From Clostridia bacterium (lineage in GTDB: Bacteria > Bacillota > Clostridia > Monoglobales > Firm-18), in NCBI GenBank assembly GCA_017397315.1, contig JAFQJA010000008.1:1-47343 (forward strand): a stretch of DNA of 47,343 nt, read 5' to 3'. The number at the start of each line of letters is the position of its first letter. Within the stretch, counting starts at the first letter, position 1. Below the pieces are notes generated by a model that saw only the letters and a program-made list of their open reading frames with translations, was not told the DNA's origin and ran no database searches. The translations under genes and the position numbers were made by a program. Shown here in pieces: positions 3,701 to 47,182 of the stretch.

Positions 3701-5446
3701 TTATTTGTCTGCCAACATTTCTAAAATTTTTGTACTTCTCTCTATAAATTTAGCCAACTGGTCAACCTCTAAAGGTGCATGGCAAATTCTGGCAATATCG
3801 TAAATCTGTTTGCAGATGTCCTTTTTGATTTCCTCGTCTTTTATTGTTTTAACCTTTTCCGTTAACGGACTGTCGGTATTAACAATTAAAGTATAAGTTT
3901 TCGGTGCAGTATATCCTCCGCCGAACATTCTTGTAATATCCGCCATACGTCTTGTCTGTTCGTCTTCAGACAAAATAGCAGGAACGTTGGTTTTTAGTGA
4001 TGCAGTAGTAACTTTAAGGCTTTCATCACCTAAAATATCTGAGAACAGTTTTGAAATTTCTTCGTCACCCTCATTATTTTCGGGAGTGGAGTCAATTCTT
4101 GTAAACTTGTACCCCTCTTTCATTTCAAGAAAACTTATGAAATGAGTGTCTATAATGTGGGGCAGAATAATGGCATTTTTGTCTGCCTCTTTTAAAATCT
4201 TAATGTACTGCACCTGCATTTTCGGGTCAGACACATAGGTAATTTCTTTGTTGTTTTCCTCTGCATATTTTGTGATTTCAACAAAATTACCGTCTAAATC
4301 TTTTGCCTGAAGACATGGCTTTAATTTGTCATAAAACTTTTCGTCACGCAAACATCCGTACTCGATAAACGGTGCTATATCGTCGTAATAAGTGTCATAC
4401 TGTTCCTTTTCCGTGTTGTGAAGTGACACAAGTTTGTCCGCAACTTTCTTGGTAATGTGAACTGAAATTTTATTTACCTGACCGTCGTTTTGCAAGAAAC
4501 TTCTTGAAACGTTAAGAGGTAAATCGGGGCAGTCAATAACGCCTTTTAAAAGCATTAAGTATTCGGGAATTACCTCTTTAATGTTATCTGCAACAAACAC
4601 CTGATTGTTAAATAATTTAATTTGTCCTTCCGCCGACTCAAACTCGTGTGTAAGTTTGGGGAAATATAAAATTCCTTTCAAAGAAAACGGATACTCAACA
4701 TTTAAATGTATCCAGAAAAGAGGGTCGTTTATATCCGAAAAAATCCTGTGATACAATTCCTTATACTGTTCTTCACTGCAATCTGCGGGATTTCTTGCCC
4801 AAAGAGGACAAGTATCATTTACAGGGTTTTCTTCATTATCCTGAAAAATTGGATATGGCAAAAAACCGCAGTATTTAAGAAGAATACTTTTTAATCTGTA
4901 CGGTTCTAAAAATTCCGATTCGTTTTCAGAAATATGTAGGACAATAGTTGTTCCTCTTTCTTTTCTTTCACCATCGCCCATTTCATACTCCGTGCCACCG
5001 TCGCACACCCATTTTACCGCATTTCCGCCTTTATAAGAAAGTGTATCAATTTCAACCACATCAGCAACCATAAATGCCGAGTAAAAGCCCAGACCAAAAT
5101 GACCGATAATTTGGCTTTCCTCCTCGTTGCTTTTGTACTTCTCCAAAAATTCTTCCGCACCCGAAAACGCCACTTGGGTAATATATTTTTCGACTTCTTC
5201 CGCAGTCATTCCTATTCCGTTGTCAGATATGGTAACAGTTTTTGCCTCCTTGTCGCAAACAACACAAAGTTTAGGCTGGTCGTTCATCTCTGCCTCACCT
5301 AATGATGACAGTTTTTTCATTTTTGTAATTGCATCGCATCCGTTTACTACAAGTTCTCTTAAAAATATATCCTTATCTGAATAAAGCCACTTTTTAATTA
5401 CAGGAAAAATATTTTGTGTGTGGACCTTAATATTTCCTTTTTTCAT
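3701..5446 (-). CDS. htpG: molecular chaperone HtpG (Hsp90 family)
   Basis: This is a cytoplasmic ATP-dependent Hsp90 chaperone of 581 aa, somewhat shorter than E. coli HtpG (about 624 aa), as I expect for clostridial forms. The GHKL ATP-binding motifs are present: ELVVNGCDA with Asn35 and Asp38, DNGIGM at 75-80, and GHFGLGFYS at 115-123. The middle domain includes LNVSRSFLQND, the catalytic-loop Arg region. The usual SNASDA motif reads VNGCDA here, keeping the ligand Asn and Asp. The start is 5 bp after the M18 peptidase stop, with AAAGGA as ribosome-binding site. Conserved position in a peptidase-htpG-copA run suggests co-transcription. Confidence 0.94.
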   Translation of the reverse strand: MKKGNIKVHTQNIFPVIKKWLYSDKDIFLRELVVNGCDAITKMKKLSSLGEAEMNDQPKLCVVCDKEAKTVTISDNGIGMTAEEVEKYITQVAFSGAEEFLEKYKSNEEESQIIGHFGLGFYSAFMVADVVEIDTLSYKGGNAVKWVCDGGTEYEMGDGERKERGTTIVLHISENESEFLEPYRLKSILLKYCGFLPYPIFQDNEENPVNDTCPLWARNPADCSEEQYKELYHRIFSDINDPLFWIHLNVEYPFSLKGILYFPKLTHEFESAEGQIKLFNNQVFVADNIKEVIPEYLMLLKGVIDCPDLPLNVSRSFLQNDGQVNKISVHITKKVADKLVSLHNTEKEQYDTYYDDIAPFIEYGCLRDEKFYDKLKPCLQAKDLDGNFVEITKYAEENNKEITYVSDPKMQVQYIKILKEADKNAIILPHIIDTHFISFLEMKEGYKFTRIDSTPENNEGDEEISKLFSDILGDESLKVTTASLKTNVPAILSEDEQTRRMADITRMFGGGYTAPKTYTLIVNTDSPLTEKVKTIKDEEIKKDICKQIYDIARICHAPLEVDQLAKFIERSTKILEMLADK

Positions 5447-16223: not shown

Positions 16224-17759
16224 TTATTGAAGCCAGTATTTTCTGTCTAAACTTCTGTAACCTATTGCTTCTGCAATATGATTAAAATCAATCTCTTTCA
16301 CGCCCTCTAAATCAGCAATAGTACGAGCAACTTTAAGTATTCTGTCATGAGCCCTTGCAGACAAACCAAGACTTTCAAAAGCAGTCTTTAATATTTCTTT
16401 TGCATCATCGGTAATTACACAGTACTTCCTTATCATAGCCGGTGTCATTTGAGAATTGCTGAAAATACGCTCGTTTTCAAATCTTTTGGATTGTATTTCG
16501 CGGGCTTTTTGTACTCTGGCTCTTATGTCAGCACTGCTTTCTGCTTTTGTATCACCTTGCAACATATCATATTGAACCGCAGGAACATCTATGTGAATAT
16601 CAATTCTGTCTAAAAGCGGTCCGCTTATTTTTCCTACATATTTTGAAATATCGTTTGGACTACAGGTGCATCTGTGTTTTACATCTCCGAAATATCCGCA
16701 CTTGCACGGATTCATTGATGCCACGAACAAAACATTAGCGGGGAAGGTGTAACTTGCATTGGCGCGGGCGATTGTAATACTTCCGTCCTCCAACGGCTGT
16801 CGCATTACTTCAAGACTTTGCCTTGTAAATTCGGGCAACTCGTCTAAAAACAATACGCCGTTATGAGCAAGAGAAATTTCGCCCGGTTTTGGAATAGCCC
16901 CTCCTCCAACAAGTCCTACAGCAGAAACACTGTGATGAGGGCTGCGGAAAGGACGGTTTTTTAGGATTGAAACATTTTCAGGAAGAACTCCTGCGATAGA
17001 ATGGATTTTGGTAGTTTCCAAAGTCTCCTGAAAAGCGGGTTCGGGTAAAATGCTTGGTATTCTTTTGGCAATCATAGATTTTCCGCTACCGGGGCTGCCA
17101 ATCATAATAATGTTGTGCCCGCCTGCTACTGCAACTTCTACGGCCCTTTTTACACTTTCTTGTCCTTTAACATCTTCAAAGTCAAATTCATAGTAGTCTT
17201 TGTCTGAAAATATTTCTCCTTTATTAACCGAAACAGGCTCAACTACCTGTTCCCCTGTCAAGTGTTTAACAACCGAATATAAATCTGTAGCAGGGTAAAC
17301 ATTTATTCCGTCAACAATCCCTGCTTCTAAAGCATTTGCTTTAGGTACAATAATGTTTTTAATTCCTTTATCTCTTGCGATTATTGCCATTGGCAAAACA
17401 CCGTTTACACGCCTTATCTCACCGTCTAATGACAACTCACCGCAAATCATATAGTCATCCAATGAAGACTGAGGAATAATTCCTGTTAATGATAAAAGTG
17501 CAACCGCTATTGGCAAATCATACACCGCACCCTCTTTTTTAACATCGGCAGGTGCTAAATTTACAATAATATGCTTAACAGGCAAAGAGTATCCGCAGTT
17601 TTTAATGGCTGCTTTAACACGCTCTTTGCTCTCTTTTATACCTGTATCGGGCAACCCCACAATATCAAAAGCAGGCAGACCTGAAGACAAGTCCACCTCA
17701 ACATCTATTATTATGCCGTCAATGCCGGCTAATGCACAAGACTTTACTTTTGAAATCAT
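16224..17759 (-). CDS. comM: YifB/ComM-family Mg-chelatase-like AAA+ ATPase
   Basis: A 511-aa protein with an N-terminal Lon-protease-like/S5 fold segment (GLPAFDIVGLPDTGIKESKERVKAAIKN), a central AAA+ domain with Walker A GSPGSGKSMIAKRIPSILP, an SPHHSVSAVGLVGGG block, Walker B VLFLDELPEF, and a cysteine cluster (NPCKCGYFGD through CTC) typical of the Mg-chelatase-like subfamily. The C-terminal helical region has GLSARAHDRILKVARTIADL. In transformable bacteria ComM is a branch-migration helicase that helps integrate incoming DNA; here that role is an assumption. It sits 23 bp after galK, and its ribosome-binding site is an unusually G-rich run. Confidence 0.92.
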   Translation of the reverse strand: MISKVKSCALAGIDGIIIDVEVDLSSGLPAFDIVGLPDTGIKESKERVKAAIKNCGYSLPVKHIIVNLAPADVKKEGAVYDLPIAVALLSLTGIIPQSSLDDYMICGELSLDGEIRRVNGVLPMAIIARDKGIKNIIVPKANALEAGIVDGINVYPATDLYSVVKHLTGEQVVEPVSVNKGEIFSDKDYYEFDFEDVKGQESVKRAVEVAVAGGHNIIMIGSPGSGKSMIAKRIPSILPEPAFQETLETTKIHSIAGVLPENVSILKNRPFRSPHHSVSAVGLVGGGAIPKPGEISLAHNGVLFLDELPEFTRQSLEVMRQPLEDGSITIARANASYTFPANVLFVASMNPCKCGYFGDVKHRCTCSPNDISKYVGKISGPLLDRIDIHIDVPAVQYDMLQGDTKAESSADIRARVQKAREIQSKRFENERIFSNSQMTPAMIRKYCVITDDAKEILKTAFESLGLSARAHDRILKVARTIADLEGVKEIDFNHIAEAIGYRSLDRKYWLQ

Positions 17760-43082: not shown

Positions 43083-44491
43083 TGACCCACCTCATTACAT
43101 GAAAACAGAATTATCTGATTGTCCGTATTTATAAGATATTCCAATGCTCTTTTAAGACGGGTTTTGTCATATCTTACAAAGGCATCGTCCAAAATCAAAG
43201 GCATATCGGGGAATAACATTTTAACAAGTGCCATTTTAAGAGAAAAATAAATCTGGTCAAAAGCACCATCGCTTAAATACTCTGCTGACTGCCAGCCGTC
43301 GACTGTGTTGTGTGCCATCATCTCGTACTGTCCCGACACCTTTACGCCGTCATATTTGTCGTCCGTAATCACTGACAAAATTTCCGAAACATTGTTGTTA
43401 AGCTCGACGCCGAAACCTTGTTGTAACTGCGTAAAAGCATCGTCAAGACACTTTTTTGCATACAGCAAATCATTTAGTTTTCCGTTATATTTTTCAATTT
43501 CTGAATTGACATAATCTATTTCGCCTTTTGTATTTCCAAACTCAGCACTTTCAAGCATCTTTATCTTTTCTTCGTAACGGGCAATATGCTCCGTAATTGC
43601 CATAAGGCGTTCTATATGTGTATTATCCTCTTTCTGACGGGATATAGACACTATCAGCATACCCAAAAAAACTACAGGCAAACCTACAAGTGCAGGGTGG
43701 ATAAAGGCAAAAACGACAGCACACGCAACAAGCAAACAATAAATTATGATTAATTTTGGGGATAAATACCTGTTTTCCTTTTTGTTTTCATTTGAAGTTA
43801 ATAATTTTTGCTGTGCTTTTAATTCCTGCACAGTTTTCTTTAATTCCTGTGCCGTCGCATAGTCTTTTTGCACATTATTTATTTTTATATACAGCAAATC
43901 CAGCTTGTCCTTTAACTGTTTAATTTTTCCCGTTCTTCCGTTCAGTTCTTTAATAGACTTGTCAAGAATTTCTGTGGCACGGTTGTAAGAAATATTCTCT
44001 TCACCCGTTTGCGTCAGGTTTATAAGTCTGTCCATAATTTCGTCAGAACCCTGAGCCATATCAATATAAAAATGATTAATGTAAAGTACTTTTAAAAAAG
44101 CATCTGCACCGACGCCCGTCATTGCAAACATAGGTTCGTCTGTTTCATACGCGGATATTCTTTCACCGGTAATTTCGTCAATAACAGATACGGTGTCGTC
44201 TCCCTTTTTTGCACCGAATTTTCTTGTGATAATATAACTTTTGCCGTCGTGGGAAACAGTTATTTCCCCATCCATACTCTTTTCGCCCCACGGCAAATAG
44301 CGTTTTCTTGTGTTTTCCCTTATATTTCTGGCATTTTTCTTCATACCGTAAAGCATTGCAAAAATGAATTCAGCAATGGTAGTTTTTCCATACTCGTTTT
44401 GTTTGTTTACAATATTAAAACCTTCTCGGAATTCCATTCGGTATTCTTTTAAGCAACCAAATTGTTTAACATATATACTTTTAATCTTCAT
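43079..44491 (-). CDS. membrane-anchored SbcC/YhaN-like ATPase
   Basis: A 470-aa ABC/SMC-type ATPase. N-terminal half: MKIKSIYVKQFGCLKEYRMEF and a Walker A-like NEYGKTT at 32-38. Then a coiled coil (about 175-245), two adjacent hydrophobic segments (IIIYCLLVACAVVFAFI and LVGLPVVFLGMLIVSI, about 248-285), a returning coiled coil, a signature-like LSDGAFDQIYFSLK and Walker B MPLILDDAFVRYD. The membrane hairpin takes the place of the SbcC zinc hook, as in YhaN-type proteins, but the protein is much shorter than YhaN or SbcC. It follows the SbcD-like gene with an 11-nt overlap, so the two should form a nuclease complex, possibly at the membrane. Confidence 0.85.
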   Translation of the reverse strand: MKIKSIYVKQFGCLKEYRMEFREGFNIVNKQNEYGKTTIAEFIFAMLYGMKKNARNIRENTRKRYLPWGEKSMDGEITVSHDGKSYIITRKFGAKKGDDTVSVIDEITGERISAYETDEPMFAMTGVGADAFLKVLYINHFYIDMAQGSDEIMDRLINLTQTGEENISYNRATEILDKSIKELNGRTGKIKQLKDKLDLLYIKINNVQKDYATAQELKKTVQELKAQQKLLTSNENKKENRYLSPKLIIIYCLLVACAVVFAFIHPALVGLPVVFLGMLIVSISRQKEDNTHIERLMAITEHIARYEEKIKMLESAEFGNTKGEIDYVNSEIEKYNGKLNDLLYAKKCLDDAFTQLQQGFGVELNNNVSEILSVITDDKYDGVKVSGQYEMMAHNTVDGWQSAEYLSDGAFDQIYFSLKMALVKMLFPDMPLILDDAFVRYDKTRLKRALEYLINTDNQIILFSCNEVGQ

Positions 44492-45518
44492 CTGTATATA
44501 TCCTTTCTCCGTTTAGGGCCTTAAGTCCGTAGTCAAGGGCCTGTTGGTTGTTCATAGCATTTTTCACAAAGTACCCTACAAGATTTTGTCCTTTTGCCAA
44601 TTCTTCAATGTCAACCTGCACTTTTGTCTTGTCAACAACTTTTGCGTAAAACAGTTTTTCCTGTAAAACTGCACTTAATGTTTCGGGATTTATGTGCCCT
44701 GATGGTGTGCCTGTTAACACTATTTTGTATAAATCTTTGTCGTTGACGCTCTCCATAACCTTGTCCGCAACTTCTATGTAGTTGGATAGTCCGTCGCAGT
44801 CAACGGAAAGTTCTACGAATTTTCTTGAGCCCAAAGGCACAAATTCCGTTTCAACGGTGTTTTCATATATGTCTGCTATGATTACGCCTTTTTCTCCAAG
44901 TTCGTCAAAGCCTCTGCCCATCGGAACACCGCTGTAACAGTAATATGTATTTCCTTTTTTATCTACTCCATCGTGGCTGTGATTATGACCTAACGCAAGA
45001 TAATTAAGTTCCGATTTTTCAATGTCGCTTGACAAAAATGGATTGTCTGTAGTGCCGTTTAAAGTTCCGTGGCAAAGCATTATGTTGATTTTGCCGTTGT
45101 CTTTTATCACTAAATCTTTAAGTGGTGAAACATCTTTTTCGAAATTAAACCCTGCACCGTAAATGTCTGCATCTTTTAAAGATACAAAGTTAAGATCCGT
45201 GCCAAACAAGTGCACATTCTCGGGGAAAGTGTAATTAAATCCGAAGTCGTGATTGCCTAAAATGGCAAACACGGGAATATGGCAGATTTTATCAAAAGCA
45301 TCGCACATATATTTGTATGACGCCTGAGACATTGTGCCGTTGTCTGTAATGTCCCCTGAAATAAGTATTGCATCAACATTTTTCTCTTTCGCTATATTAA
45401 CTATTTTGCCGAAAGTTTCTAACAGTTCGTGCTTTAAAAGTTCTGCTTTTTGTGAAACAGAAAAAAATGTTGTGTCTATGTGCAAATCTGCCGTATGCAG
45501 TATCCTTATATGTTTCAT
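44481..45518 (-). CDS. SbcD/Mre11-like metallophosphoesterase (YhaO type)
   Basis: A 345-aa DNA repair exonuclease-type phosphoesterase. Metal-binding motifs in order: ILHTADLHID (Asp11, His13), ISGDITDNG, ILGNHDFG, MLCHGT and the LGHNHSHD histidine pair. The C-terminal ~100 residues form a cap-like region (ETLSAVLQEKLFYAKVVDKTKVQVDIEEL). Together with the overlapping ATPase gene it makes an SbcCD/YhaON-like pair likely to process DNA ends; polarity and substrate are unknown. The start follows AAGGCGG. Downstream genes run from here to mltG; upstream lies the accessory tail of the window. Confidence 0.9.
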   Translation of the reverse strand: MKHIRILHTADLHIDTTFFSVSQKAELLKHELLETFGKIVNIAKEKNVDAILISGDITDNGTMSQASYKYMCDAFDKICHIPVFAILGNHDFGFNYTFPENVHLFGTDLNFVSLKDADIYGAGFNFEKDVSPLKDLVIKDNGKINIMLCHGTLNGTTDNPFLSSDIEKSELNYLALGHNHSHDGVDKKGNTYYCYSGVPMGRGFDELGEKGVIIADIYENTVETEFVPLGSRKFVELSVDCDGLSNYIEVADKVMESVNDKDLYKIVLTGTPSGHINPETLSAVLQEKLFYAKVVDKTKVQVDIEELAKGQNLVGYFVKNAMNNQQALDYGLKALNGERIYTDED

Positions 45519-45611: not shown

Positions 45612-45731
45612 TTAAAGACAATAGAACCGTCCCCTTGTCTTTTGCTCATTAGTTTGTAACTCTTTTTCTATCATTTGAACCTTTCGTGGTAATTCCATAA
45701 GCATAGACAAAAGATATTCAGTTTTGTTCAT
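45612..45731 (-). CDS. 39-codon hypothetical mini-ORF ending in a palindrome
   Basis: ATG with AAGAGGTG 7 nt upstream, then 38 further sense codons to TAA, giving MNKTEYLLSMLMELPRKVQM followed by IEKELQTNEQKTRGRFYCL. The last eight codons are translated from the inverted repeat at 45614-45642, so the C-terminus may be a scar of an inserted palindromic element on an older, longer gene. The amphipathic, charged sequence has no family I recognise. It is just below the usual length limit of gene finders. It may be a degraded remnant. Confidence 0.3.
   Translation of the reverse strand: MNKTEYLLSMLMELPRKVQMIEKELQTNEQKTRGRFYCL
45614..45642. repeat. REP-like palindrome
   Basis: AAAGACAA (45614-45621) pairs with TTGTCTTT (45635-45642) around a 13-nt loop, TAGAACCGTCCCC. 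The sequence resembles short palindromes with an AACCGTCCCC core that I recall from many Firmicutes genomes, often near Y1/RAYT-type transposases. That association is from memory; no transposase gene is in the window. Confidence 0.45.
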
Positions 45732-45830
45732 AATATTCACCTCTTGCTTATACTTTACCATACAGACTGCACATTAAAACGGACTGTTTTCGTATCATTC
45801 ATCAATTTTAACATAATCAAACTCGTATTA

Positions 45831-45986
45831 GGACCTACTATTTTTGCCCTGTTTTTTCACTGTGTTTTTCTTAAACACTTTTCCTTAGAACCCGCGAGAA
45901 TACTGGATTTTCTCGCATCCGATAGTATATGTAAATATTATAAATCGGCAAACTAATCTTTTAAATTGTATGGACTTGACACAGTC
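45831..45986. repeat. structured repeat, copy A
   Basis: This copy shares with copy B (47064-47182) the start GGACCTACTATTTT, the centre TTAGAACC, a hairpin (GCGAGAA/TTCTCGC, 45894-45916), a second hairpin (CCGAT/ATCGG, 45919-45948) with TATGTAAATAT in its loop, and the end CGGCAAACTA. After that an AT-rich stretch leads to a GACAGT-type sequence in both. It occupies the gap just downstream of the lipoprotein gene on the minus strand. A further GTGTTT/AAACAC hairpin (45862-45878) is only in copy A. Nothing else of note is visible in 45732-45830. Confidence 0.6.
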
Positions 45987-46013
45987 TTAAAGCGTACCCT
46001 GTGTTTAAATTTT

Positions 46014-46916
46014 TTATTCACTTTGAGCATTCATAATTAATCTCAGTATTTTATTATATCTCTCACGATCAACAAAATCTGACTCAATCATAACAATTCC
46101 TTCATTGGAATGCACATAATACAAAAACACACATTGCTTTATTTCCCCTGTTTTAAAGTTTCTGATATCATATAACATAAAGTGAGCCTTTATTCCTACT
46201 CCCTGATATTTCCCAATATCATTTGGAAGTTGTTCACTAATTATAGCAAAATCTGATTCATTATAATTATCTAATTCTATTTCTGCACCTATACTGCTGT
46301 TTACCACGATTTCACAATCATCACCAATGAATTCATAGACTTTATTTAAAAAGCCTCTATCAGGCTCTGCAACCTTAGTAGCCATAATTGTTTTATAATA
46401 TTCTTCAAATATTTGAATTGTATCAGTTGATTTTTCAATGTAATCAGTAGTTATTTTATCTGACGATATTCTTTCGCACAGATTTTCCTTTGTATAATAA
46501 GAGCCTGAAAAAGCATTCTCCGGATTACCTCTATCTGCAAAATCGTCATAAAAATAATATGATATTTCATCCGCATTTTTTACTAAAGCAAAAATAAAAC
46601 CTGACATTCTATTTAACCCATTATTATCTATGTATCTATAATTAGCACGATCATCTACTGCAAAATTAACAGTCAGGCGAAATGGCTTTGTATCCGTCTT
46701 TAACTCAATATTTTCAACCTTATATTCAGTATTATTGGCTAAATCTATAATTGCACGTACTTTTGATGCATCTCCTATATACGCATCTTTTAACTTAAAC
46801 AGTTTATTAACAACATCTATTTCGCTAACATCATTCTTTTCTAATGCAGAATTACATCCGTTAAATATAAAAATCGCTAAAAGTAAAATAAAAATTATAA
46901 CTGATTTCTTTTTCAT
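46014..46916 (-). CDS. DUF4825-like lipoprotein with unrecognised C-terminal domain
   Basis: A 300-aa secreted lipoprotein: lysine-rich start, hydrophobic core and lipobox-like FNGC with Cys21. Residues about 35-115 resemble DUF4825 (NKLFKLKDAYIGDASKVRAIIDL, then KTDTKPFRLTVNF), a domain I associate with BlaR/MecR-type sensor proteins and small lipoproteins. Residues about 150-300 contain no domain I know; it is rich in acidic and aromatic residues. The start ATG follows AAAGGAG. The gene is more AT-rich than its neighbours and stands alone between two related structured repeats, which suggests acquisition or a mobile context. No function is assigned. Confidence 0.7.
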   Translation of the reverse strand: MKKKSVIIFILLLAIFIFNGCNSALEKNDVSEIDVVNKLFKLKDAYIGDASKVRAIIDLANNTEYKVENIELKTDTKPFRLTVNFAVDDRANYRYIDNNGLNRMSGFIFALVKNADEISYYFYDDFADRGNPENAFSGSYYTKENLCERISSDKITTDYIEKSTDTIQIFEEYYKTIMATKVAEPDRGFLNKVYEFIGDDCEIVVNSSIGAEIELDNYNESDFAIISEQLPNDIGKYQGVGIKAHFMLYDIRNFKTGEIKQCVFLYYVHSNEGIVMIESDFVDRERYNKILRLIMNAQSE

Positions 46917-46938
46917 TATTATAATCTCCTTTCAATAT

Positions 46939-46967
46939 TTTCTAGACACAATTCTCACTCGTGTCAA
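46939..46967 (-). promoter_or_regulatory. candidate promoter of the DUF4825-like gene
   Basis: Minus-strand TTGACA (46967-46962), 17-bp spacer, TAGAAA (46944-46939), 23 bp upstream of the start. The -10 is weak (4 of 6). A GACAC/GTGTC inverted repeat spans the spacer. Confidence 0.4.
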
Positions 46968-46999
46968 GACAGGAGAACAGTGAATAATAAGAACCATCA

Positions 47000-47029
47000 C
47001 CCAACACGAAATCACAGATTTCTGTTGGG
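47000..47029. repeat. strong 12-bp hairpin upstream of the lipoprotein promoter
   Basis: CCCAACA pairs with TGTTGGG and, after one bulged C, GAAAT pairs with ATTTC around a 5-nt loop. GAACC occurs on both sides (46991-46995 and 47036-47040), and a TTATGC/GCATAA hairpin follows at 47045-47060. It lies between the zinc-binding-protein gene and the lipoprotein gene. No T-run follows, so it is not a standard terminator. Confidence 0.5.
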
Positions 47030-47063
47030 TACCCGAGAACCTTGTTATGCTAAAGCATAATAT

Positions 47064-47182
47064 GGACCTACTATTTTCACTCTAACATTTTTCATTAGAA
47101 CCTGCAGAAATAATAGATTTTCCTGCCCGATATGTAAATATCTATTATCGGCAAACTATTATATTAAATTTTGAGACAGTTC
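47064..47182. repeat. structured repeat, copy B
   Basis: Second copy of the element at 45831-45986, same orientation. Hairpin 1 is GCAGAAA/TTTCCTGC (47104-47126) and hairpin 2 is CCGATA/TATCGG (47127-47151); the stem of hairpin 1 differs from copy A but keeps pairing. It is just downstream of the Cys/His-rich gene on the minus strand, as copy A is downstream of the lipoprotein gene. Confidence 0.6.

Follow-up and report, generated by a model that had tools for sequence, protein, structure and literature searches.

The stretch of DNA analysed here, referred to as the window, comprises 47,343 nt of contig JAFQJA010000008.1. Towards its end lie two elements, A and B, that alternate with minus-strand genes (Table 1). 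Element B precedes the leader of an accessory gene, the end motif of A lies 27 bp from the stop codon of that gene, and an SbcD-like exonuclease gene, whose region is 86% conserved in the congener G001, comes after A. A and B are real elements of one family. Both contain GGACCTACTATTTT (at 45831 and 47064) and a 41-nt repeat with 80% identity (at 45927 and 47130), they match each other at an E-value of ~2e-10 in a search of the genome, and further copies lie on contigs C15 and C19. With a covariance model, five copies are found in the source metagenome-assembled genome (MAG; 917 kb), two of which form a second array, on C15.

The blocks that an initial annotation of this DNA had described as common to A and B are all present at their positions. 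Element B is longer than it had indicated and extends, on the minus strand, from around 47182 to 46958. Two hairpins had been assigned to each copy; B holds two more, those of its optional module, that A has lost. The stem given for hairpin 1 of B has one A-C mismatch when written on the plus strand, which on the minus strand becomes a G-U pair. Finally, a minus-strand gene was proposed ahead of each copy; ahead of A this is the 300-aa gene, and ahead of B the gene is cut by the contig end, with only a 50-aa open frame remaining.

Table 1. Elements A and B and the neighbouring genes in the window.
Feature	Position	Strand	Description
Element A	45819–45986	−	Runs from 45986 to 45819 on the minus strand; far end, toward the SbcD-like gene, truncated
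A end motif	45973–45986	−	GACTTGACACAGTC on the plus strand; family consensus GACTTGACACGAGTAA
A core	45919–45955	−	Hairpin 2: CCGAT 45919–45923 / ATCGG 45944–45948
A hairpin 1	45894–45916	−	GCGAGAA/TTCTCGC
A GGACCTACTATTTT block	45831–45844	−	Gene strand reads TAGTAGGTCC
Element B	46958–47182	−	Full length, with optional module
B core	47127–47158	−	Hairpin 2: CCGAT 47127–47131 / ATCGG 47147–47151
B hairpin 1	47104–47126	−	Gene strand GCAGGAA/TTTCTGC, one G-U pair
B optional module, first hairpin	47045–47060	−	TTATGC/GCATAA; variants in other copies
B optional module, second hairpin	46999–47030	−	Gene strand ACCCAACA GAAATC TGT GATTTC G TGTTGGGT
B conserved end block	46976–46989	−	Gene strand TATTATTCACTGTT; complementary to the spacer AACAGTGAAAAAATA of most copies
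B end motif	46958–46968	−	Gene strand CTTGACACGAG; followed by the leader of gene 46014–46916
Accessory gene between B and A	46014–46916	−	300-aa lipoprotein-like protein with DUF4825
SbcD-like exonuclease gene after A	44481–45518	−	Native; identified by sequence

The element is longer than first described (130–330 bp) and is built from modules, in the order promoter-like core with hairpin 2, hairpin 1, spacer, optional module, and conserved end. On the gene strand, most copies begin with TTTACTCGTGTCAAGTCCATACAATTTAAAAGATTAGTTTGCCGAT, a spacer of 3–5 nt, and ATATTTACATATACTATCGG, which corresponds to the core and hairpin 2, and then continue with hairpin 1, of which there are two main types, GCGAGAA/TTCTCGC and GCAGGAA/TTCCTGC. 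Hairpin 1 is followed by GGGTTCT, an A-rich spacer, TAGTAGGTCC, the optional module (74 nt with two hairpins, present zero, one, or two times per element), and, at the end, TATTATTCACTGTTC-CC-GACTTGACACGAG. Measured from one end motif to the other, the copies form length classes of around 156–187, 260, 325, and 385, spaced about 74 nt apart. When single copies are folded, the end motifs are predicted to pair with each other across the element, and the spacer with TATTATTCACTGTT. We treat this predicted pairing as unproven because the ends do not covary: the consensus ends are complementary, with a mean of 10.7 of 13 positions, and the match within a copy is no better than that between copies.

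Other repeats occur in or near some of the copies. A hairpin repeat, AGACAATAGAACCGTCCCCTTGTCTTTTG, is located at 45615–45650 of the window, and repeats of a similar kind adjoin elements in L106, L118, L120, and L124. In L088 and L130 (cores at 5141 and 4968), as well as in L150, a multi-hairpin repeat, GCAACAAGCCTTGCGATGCAAG...GCATTTTTACTCCTGGTA, is found between the core and hairpin 1, and a dispersed repeat, AAAGCCTTCCCCTTGAGGGGAAGG, and its variants lie directly behind the element ends in L103, L139, L096, L105, L076, and L112.

The initial annotation had argued that pairing is kept while bases change, and this is borne out for hairpin 1. Across 52 copies, 99.1% of the cells of hairpins 1 and 2 are paired, with two-sided changes in 35 cells compared with 13.4 in shuffles and a covariation score of 0.187 compared with 0.115, a value that none of 500 shuffles reached; related sequences can beat such shuffles without any structure, while slid controls fall to 33–52% paired. 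The two-sided changes belong to hairpin 1, as hairpin 2 is 100% paired yet never altered on both sides, so the compensatory change suggested for it was not found. Across copies, no fewer than three complementary stems with unrelated sequences (ACCCAACA/TGTTGGGT, GAAATATA/TATATTTC, and ACCCGGTC/TACCGGGT) form the second hairpin of the optional module. They enclose an inner stem shared by the copies, and this also changes, from GAAATC/GATTTC to GCAATC/GATTGC; two further rows in the table of these stems are unrelated chance matches. Compensatory changes beyond those of shuffles, in both hairpin 1 and the optional hairpin, argue that this is a structured RNA under selection. The wobbles favor an RNA on the gene strand: hairpin 1 has 12 G-U and 3 A-C cells on that strand in the 52 copies (p = 0.035) and hairpin 2 has 3 and 0, few wobbles on which to base a strand test.

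After the removal of duplicates, the family comprises 89 distinct core copies. A covariance-model search, a check that the initial annotation had suggested, found between one and five copies per genome in 16 of the 51 genomes of the order. Among 60 relatives, 17 yielded copies in similarity searches, and a search with the core pattern found 64 stretches in named records, which are Clostridia MAGs, mostly from the guts of sheep, goat, deer, buffalo, and yak. No copy was found in the viral contigs searched with the same pattern. The carriers are draft MAGs, with many of the copies close to the end of a contig. Element A is 85 to 94% identical, over around 156 bp, to copies from other genera and families. 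The closest of these, in another family, is 94% identical, whereas the congener G001 is only 83 to 89% identical in coding DNA; thus, the element either moves between lineages or is very strongly constrained. Comparison with Rfam, also suggested initially, gave nothing at the gathering score in the window, nor a credible sub-threshold match at relaxed E-values, and we found nothing relevant in the literature on cassette or repeat systems of such a kind in these bacteria. The proposal of a dispersed structured RNA element under selection for pairing is supported.

The position of the element relative to genes is strikingly regular. A copy was scorable if it lay in a gap of 120 to 900 bp whose flanking frames had 90 aa or more, and in all 48 such copies the element follows the stop codon of an upstream gene with which it shares the strand, in agreement with the proposed location at gene 3′ ends; in a looser count, the upstream gene is on the same strand in 82 of 83 copies. 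The downstream gene is co-directional in 45 of the 48 copies and convergent in 3, and no copy lies between divergent genes, whereas other gaps of this size in the same loci are co-directional in 79 cases (68%), divergent in 23 (20%), and convergent in 14 (12%). Random orientation of the copies is therefore excluded. The alternation of genes and elements seen in the window recurs in other genomes, with arrays of fixed polarity in L083, L104, L138, L143, and L063. Further small genes in the same direction are found in L063:5600-8050 (G033:C2), and between them lies another intergenic repeat, shorter than the first (AAAGGTTTGCATCTAAACCTTATGTGTCGCAAT and then TGTCGAATGTTGTCGAAAGG), that could be a sister family in the same kind of array.

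An inspection of the genes that precede the copies, which had also been suggested, shows that they are mostly accessory. They include an EcoRI-type restriction enzyme, a YhcG-type nuclease, DUF4435-AAA and Schlafen AlbA_2 proteins, DKNYY proteins with SLH, a beta-lactamase fold, LRR proteins, and many proteins without a family, and elements also occur behind core genes. The downstream genes are a mixture that includes housekeeping-type enzymes and have no common function. A need for transcription from the upstream gene would explain the polarity, and so would co-inheritance with that gene.

Given these observations, we favor, with roughly even credence, the reading that the element is an intercistronic RNA repeat, modular and dispersed, which serves as punctuation in accessory-gene arrays and offers homology for gene exchange. 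Transcripts of the upstream gene may run into the element, and a start site may lie in its core. The hairpins would then punctuate the array: the 3′ end of the preceding message would be protected or processed by them, and they would define the leader of the message that follows. With copies in direct repeat on either side of genes, homologous recombination could swap the genes between them, possibly with the help of conjugative elements, and recombination of this type would leave the orientation fixed and the copies mosaic.

An unlikely alternative is that the element is a MITE of the BOX type, delimited by an inverted repeat (CTCGTGTCAAG/CTTGACACGAG), that a transposase acting in trans has spread and that is tolerated in only one orientation. 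BOX, from Streptococcus pneumoniae, is an intergenic repeat with a variable number of inner modules that forms extended RNA hairpins and likely affects co-transcribed genes (PMC3049150, Croucher et al. 2011). The modular build, variable inner module number, inverted ends, and size range of our element are similar, and in 26 of 42 copies TA directly precedes the first end. Nevertheless, there is no target duplication, as TA is found on both flanks in only 8 of the 42 copies and none of them has a direct repeat of at least 4 bp, and the two ends diverge independently, without covariation between them. Moreover, one to five copies per genome contrast with around 125 BOX elements in a pneumococcus, and BOX is enriched between convergent genes and present between divergent ones (PMC3049150), neither of which applies here. 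No autonomous relative with these ends was seen.

The promoter-like core brings in a second alternative, which we regard as quite improbable, namely that the element supplies the promoter and leader of the gene downstream of it, as a cis-regulatory RNA whose polarity relative to the upstream gene is only a by-product of co-directional arrays. Hairpin 2 of A overlaps the usual core, TTGCCG-N16/17-TATACT, whose promoter-like score of 8.07 is barely above the 7.77 of shuffled DNA. The divergent copies L081, L068, L112, and L050 have near-consensus promoters at the position of the core, with scores of 9.5 to 11 and hairpin 1 directly behind; in L081, for instance, the core reads TTTACA-N18-TATAAT. 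A transcription start site in the core is plausible. Also in line with a leader function, the downstream gene is mostly co-directional, a related promoter, with no element, precedes the SbcD gene of G001, and TGTCGAA occurs within 60 nt behind the element end in 27 of 63 leaders, compared with 0.7% expected. These boxes lie immediately ahead of the ribosome binding site, in some cases as two boxes with a 3-bp gap (e.g., L063:10030-10130). TGTCGAA is the 0A-box sequence of Spo0A, and the leader boxes are possible Spo0A boxes, which we mention as a lead. On the other hand, a pure downstream-leader role is disfavored, because about a fifth of the copies (around 22%) should then fall between divergent genes, where we observed none of the 48. 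In addition, three copies have no downstream gene to serve, and the downstream genes share no function. As for the G001 promoter itself, we considered it as a promoter of the whole group and rejected it, as it has no match in 60 genomes at up to three mismatches.

Several comparisons between genomes indicate that genes are shuffled between species along the elements. One gene is 94 to 98% identical in four species, with different neighbors on both sides; its flank is alike up to the core and changes there, and in L115 homology stops within the core. The 3′ boundaries of other copies fall at several module borders, not only in the core, and the L141 copy is a mosaic whose hybrid hairpin 1 has one arm of each type. 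Such spread boundaries and a hybrid hairpin are the outcome that homologous recombination between copies would give. Comparison with the closest congener gave one informative indel: the interval between the dnaI-like and ygjV-like genes is 36 bp in G001 and 2.3 kb in the source genome, where it holds an element at its upstream end, a YitT-family gene, and a transporter-like gene; this could reflect an insertion in the source genome or a deletion in the congener.

The core is, moreover, the site at which a conjugative-type element has inserted in other genomes, at the position equivalent to the core of A. In JAFVPB010000039.1 (G118:C14), a core is interrupted after its first half, at 17092, and gives way to a ParA/ParB-type region; a second half, with its own hairpin 1, resumes around 117163, 100 kb further on. 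Joining the flanks across this insertion (G118:C14:17093-117163; L234-L239) restores an intact element, which indicates a precise insertion with a half site at each end. At the end around 117163, opposite the ParA/ParB end, there are, at 110854-115696, three tandem large serine recombinases, all with Resolvase and Recombinase domains and two of them also with a zinc ribbon. Ends of this 100-kb element are also found in L131, L082, L180, and L148. In G045, a core that follows a different gene is joined to the ParA-side end, in G050 a related far end precedes hairpin 1, and in G066 the ParA-side end sits in a coding repeat; the core is thus preferred as a target without being the only one. Two candidates for native loci were rejected on these grounds: the ParA-side flank of L146 and L131, considered as an attI-like site, proved to be the end of the conjugative-type element in a core, and the 98% identical flank of L082 and L141 is the other end of the same element. 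A further serine recombinase (L144:3271-4191) lies 3 kb from a core whose hairpin side is unrelated DNA, and it possibly belongs to a second mobile element that uses the core.

These data bear on the proposal of the initial annotation that the element is a recombination site that assembles accessory cassettes. The shuffling of genes between elements and the use of the core by an element with serine recombinases agree with it; the lack of an integron integrase and of attC boxes, and the near lack of recombinases beside the arrays, do not. In its attC-like form, the element would be the 3′ recombination site of mobile cassettes, gene and element being moved together, through crossover in the core, by a recombinase whose gene lies elsewhere, and we consider this rather doubtful. 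It would account for the fixed polarity behind stop codons, the single gene per interval, the accessory cargo, the appearance of the same gene with new neighbors, and the end of the shared homology in the core of L115. Against it, the integron integrase model TIGR02249 stays below its curated cut-off in all 13 carriers, whose MAGs are incomplete and whose sub-threshold matches are paralleled in all 14 control genomes, and RYYYAAC...GTTRRRY boxes occur on either strand in 3 of 62 copies compared with 1.5 expected from shuffles. Likewise, there is one tyrosine-recombinase motif in all the neighborhoods scanned, the breakpoints are not confined to the core, and the dnaI indel has its element at the upstream end. 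A bolder version, in which gut Clostridia would have an integrase-less cassette system whose mobile unit is a gene with its structured 3′ element and whose recombinase is yet to be found, and in which recombination at the promoter-like core would assemble accessory arrays and re-form a promoter at each join, strikes us, taken as a whole, as very unlikely. We reject the end of an IS200/IS605 unit, also proposed initially, or a RAYT-mobilized REP, since the Y1 transposase (PF01797, Y1/HUH) is absent from the source genome and six other carriers and none of its matches in the remaining carriers is on a contig with a known element, and likewise an integron attC site proper, for which boxes and integrase fail and only the fixed polarity behind genes in arrays fits.

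If the favored reading of an intercistronic RNA repeat is right, uncultured gut bacteria would use a portable RNA punctuation mark that both influences the expression of accessory genes and sits at the joints where these are exchanged, with a cargo that includes a restriction enzyme, a nuclease, and surface and unknown proteins. The core, TATGTAAATAT-N2-6-ATCGGCAAACTA, together with the covariance model, would provide a handle for finding accessory-gene arrays in ruminant-gut metagenomes, and the same core would be a hotspot for the entry of a large conjugative-type element.

Several known systems resemble this element in part. REP/BIME and the neisserial NEMIS (Correia) elements are intercistronic or 3′-UTR hairpins on the gene strand that may affect message processing or stability. 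As in these systems, the hairpins of our element are on the gene strand, between or behind putatively co-transcribed genes. Its sequence and architecture are different, since its polarity is fixed and it combines a promoter-like core with an optional module of two hairpins. Conjugative elements with large serine recombinases, such as those of the Tn4451/Tn5397 type, have attachment sites to which the core can be compared, as it hosts a precise 100-kb insertion in one MAG and is joined by the end of the same element in a second; unlike a dedicated attachment site, it shares this role with the coding repeat in G066. In contrast to integron cassettes and their attC sites, including the integrase-less CALIN (PMC9024848), our family has no integrase or attC boxes, is also found behind core genes, and has breakpoints throughout the element, and yet it shares with them a folded structure directly behind the stop codons of accessory genes, arrays of a single polarity, and shuffled genes. 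It is not known to be related to BOX in sequence, Rfam giving no match, and it differs from BOX in the lack of a target duplication, in its one to five copies, in being neither found between divergent genes nor enriched between convergent ones, and in being common to several bacterial families together with its flanking genes. Like BOX, nonetheless, it is a short intergenic modular repeat with variable inner modules and RNA hairpins, whose copies probably vary by recombination. The family, although previously undescribed, belongs to a kind of modular structured repeat that is already known.
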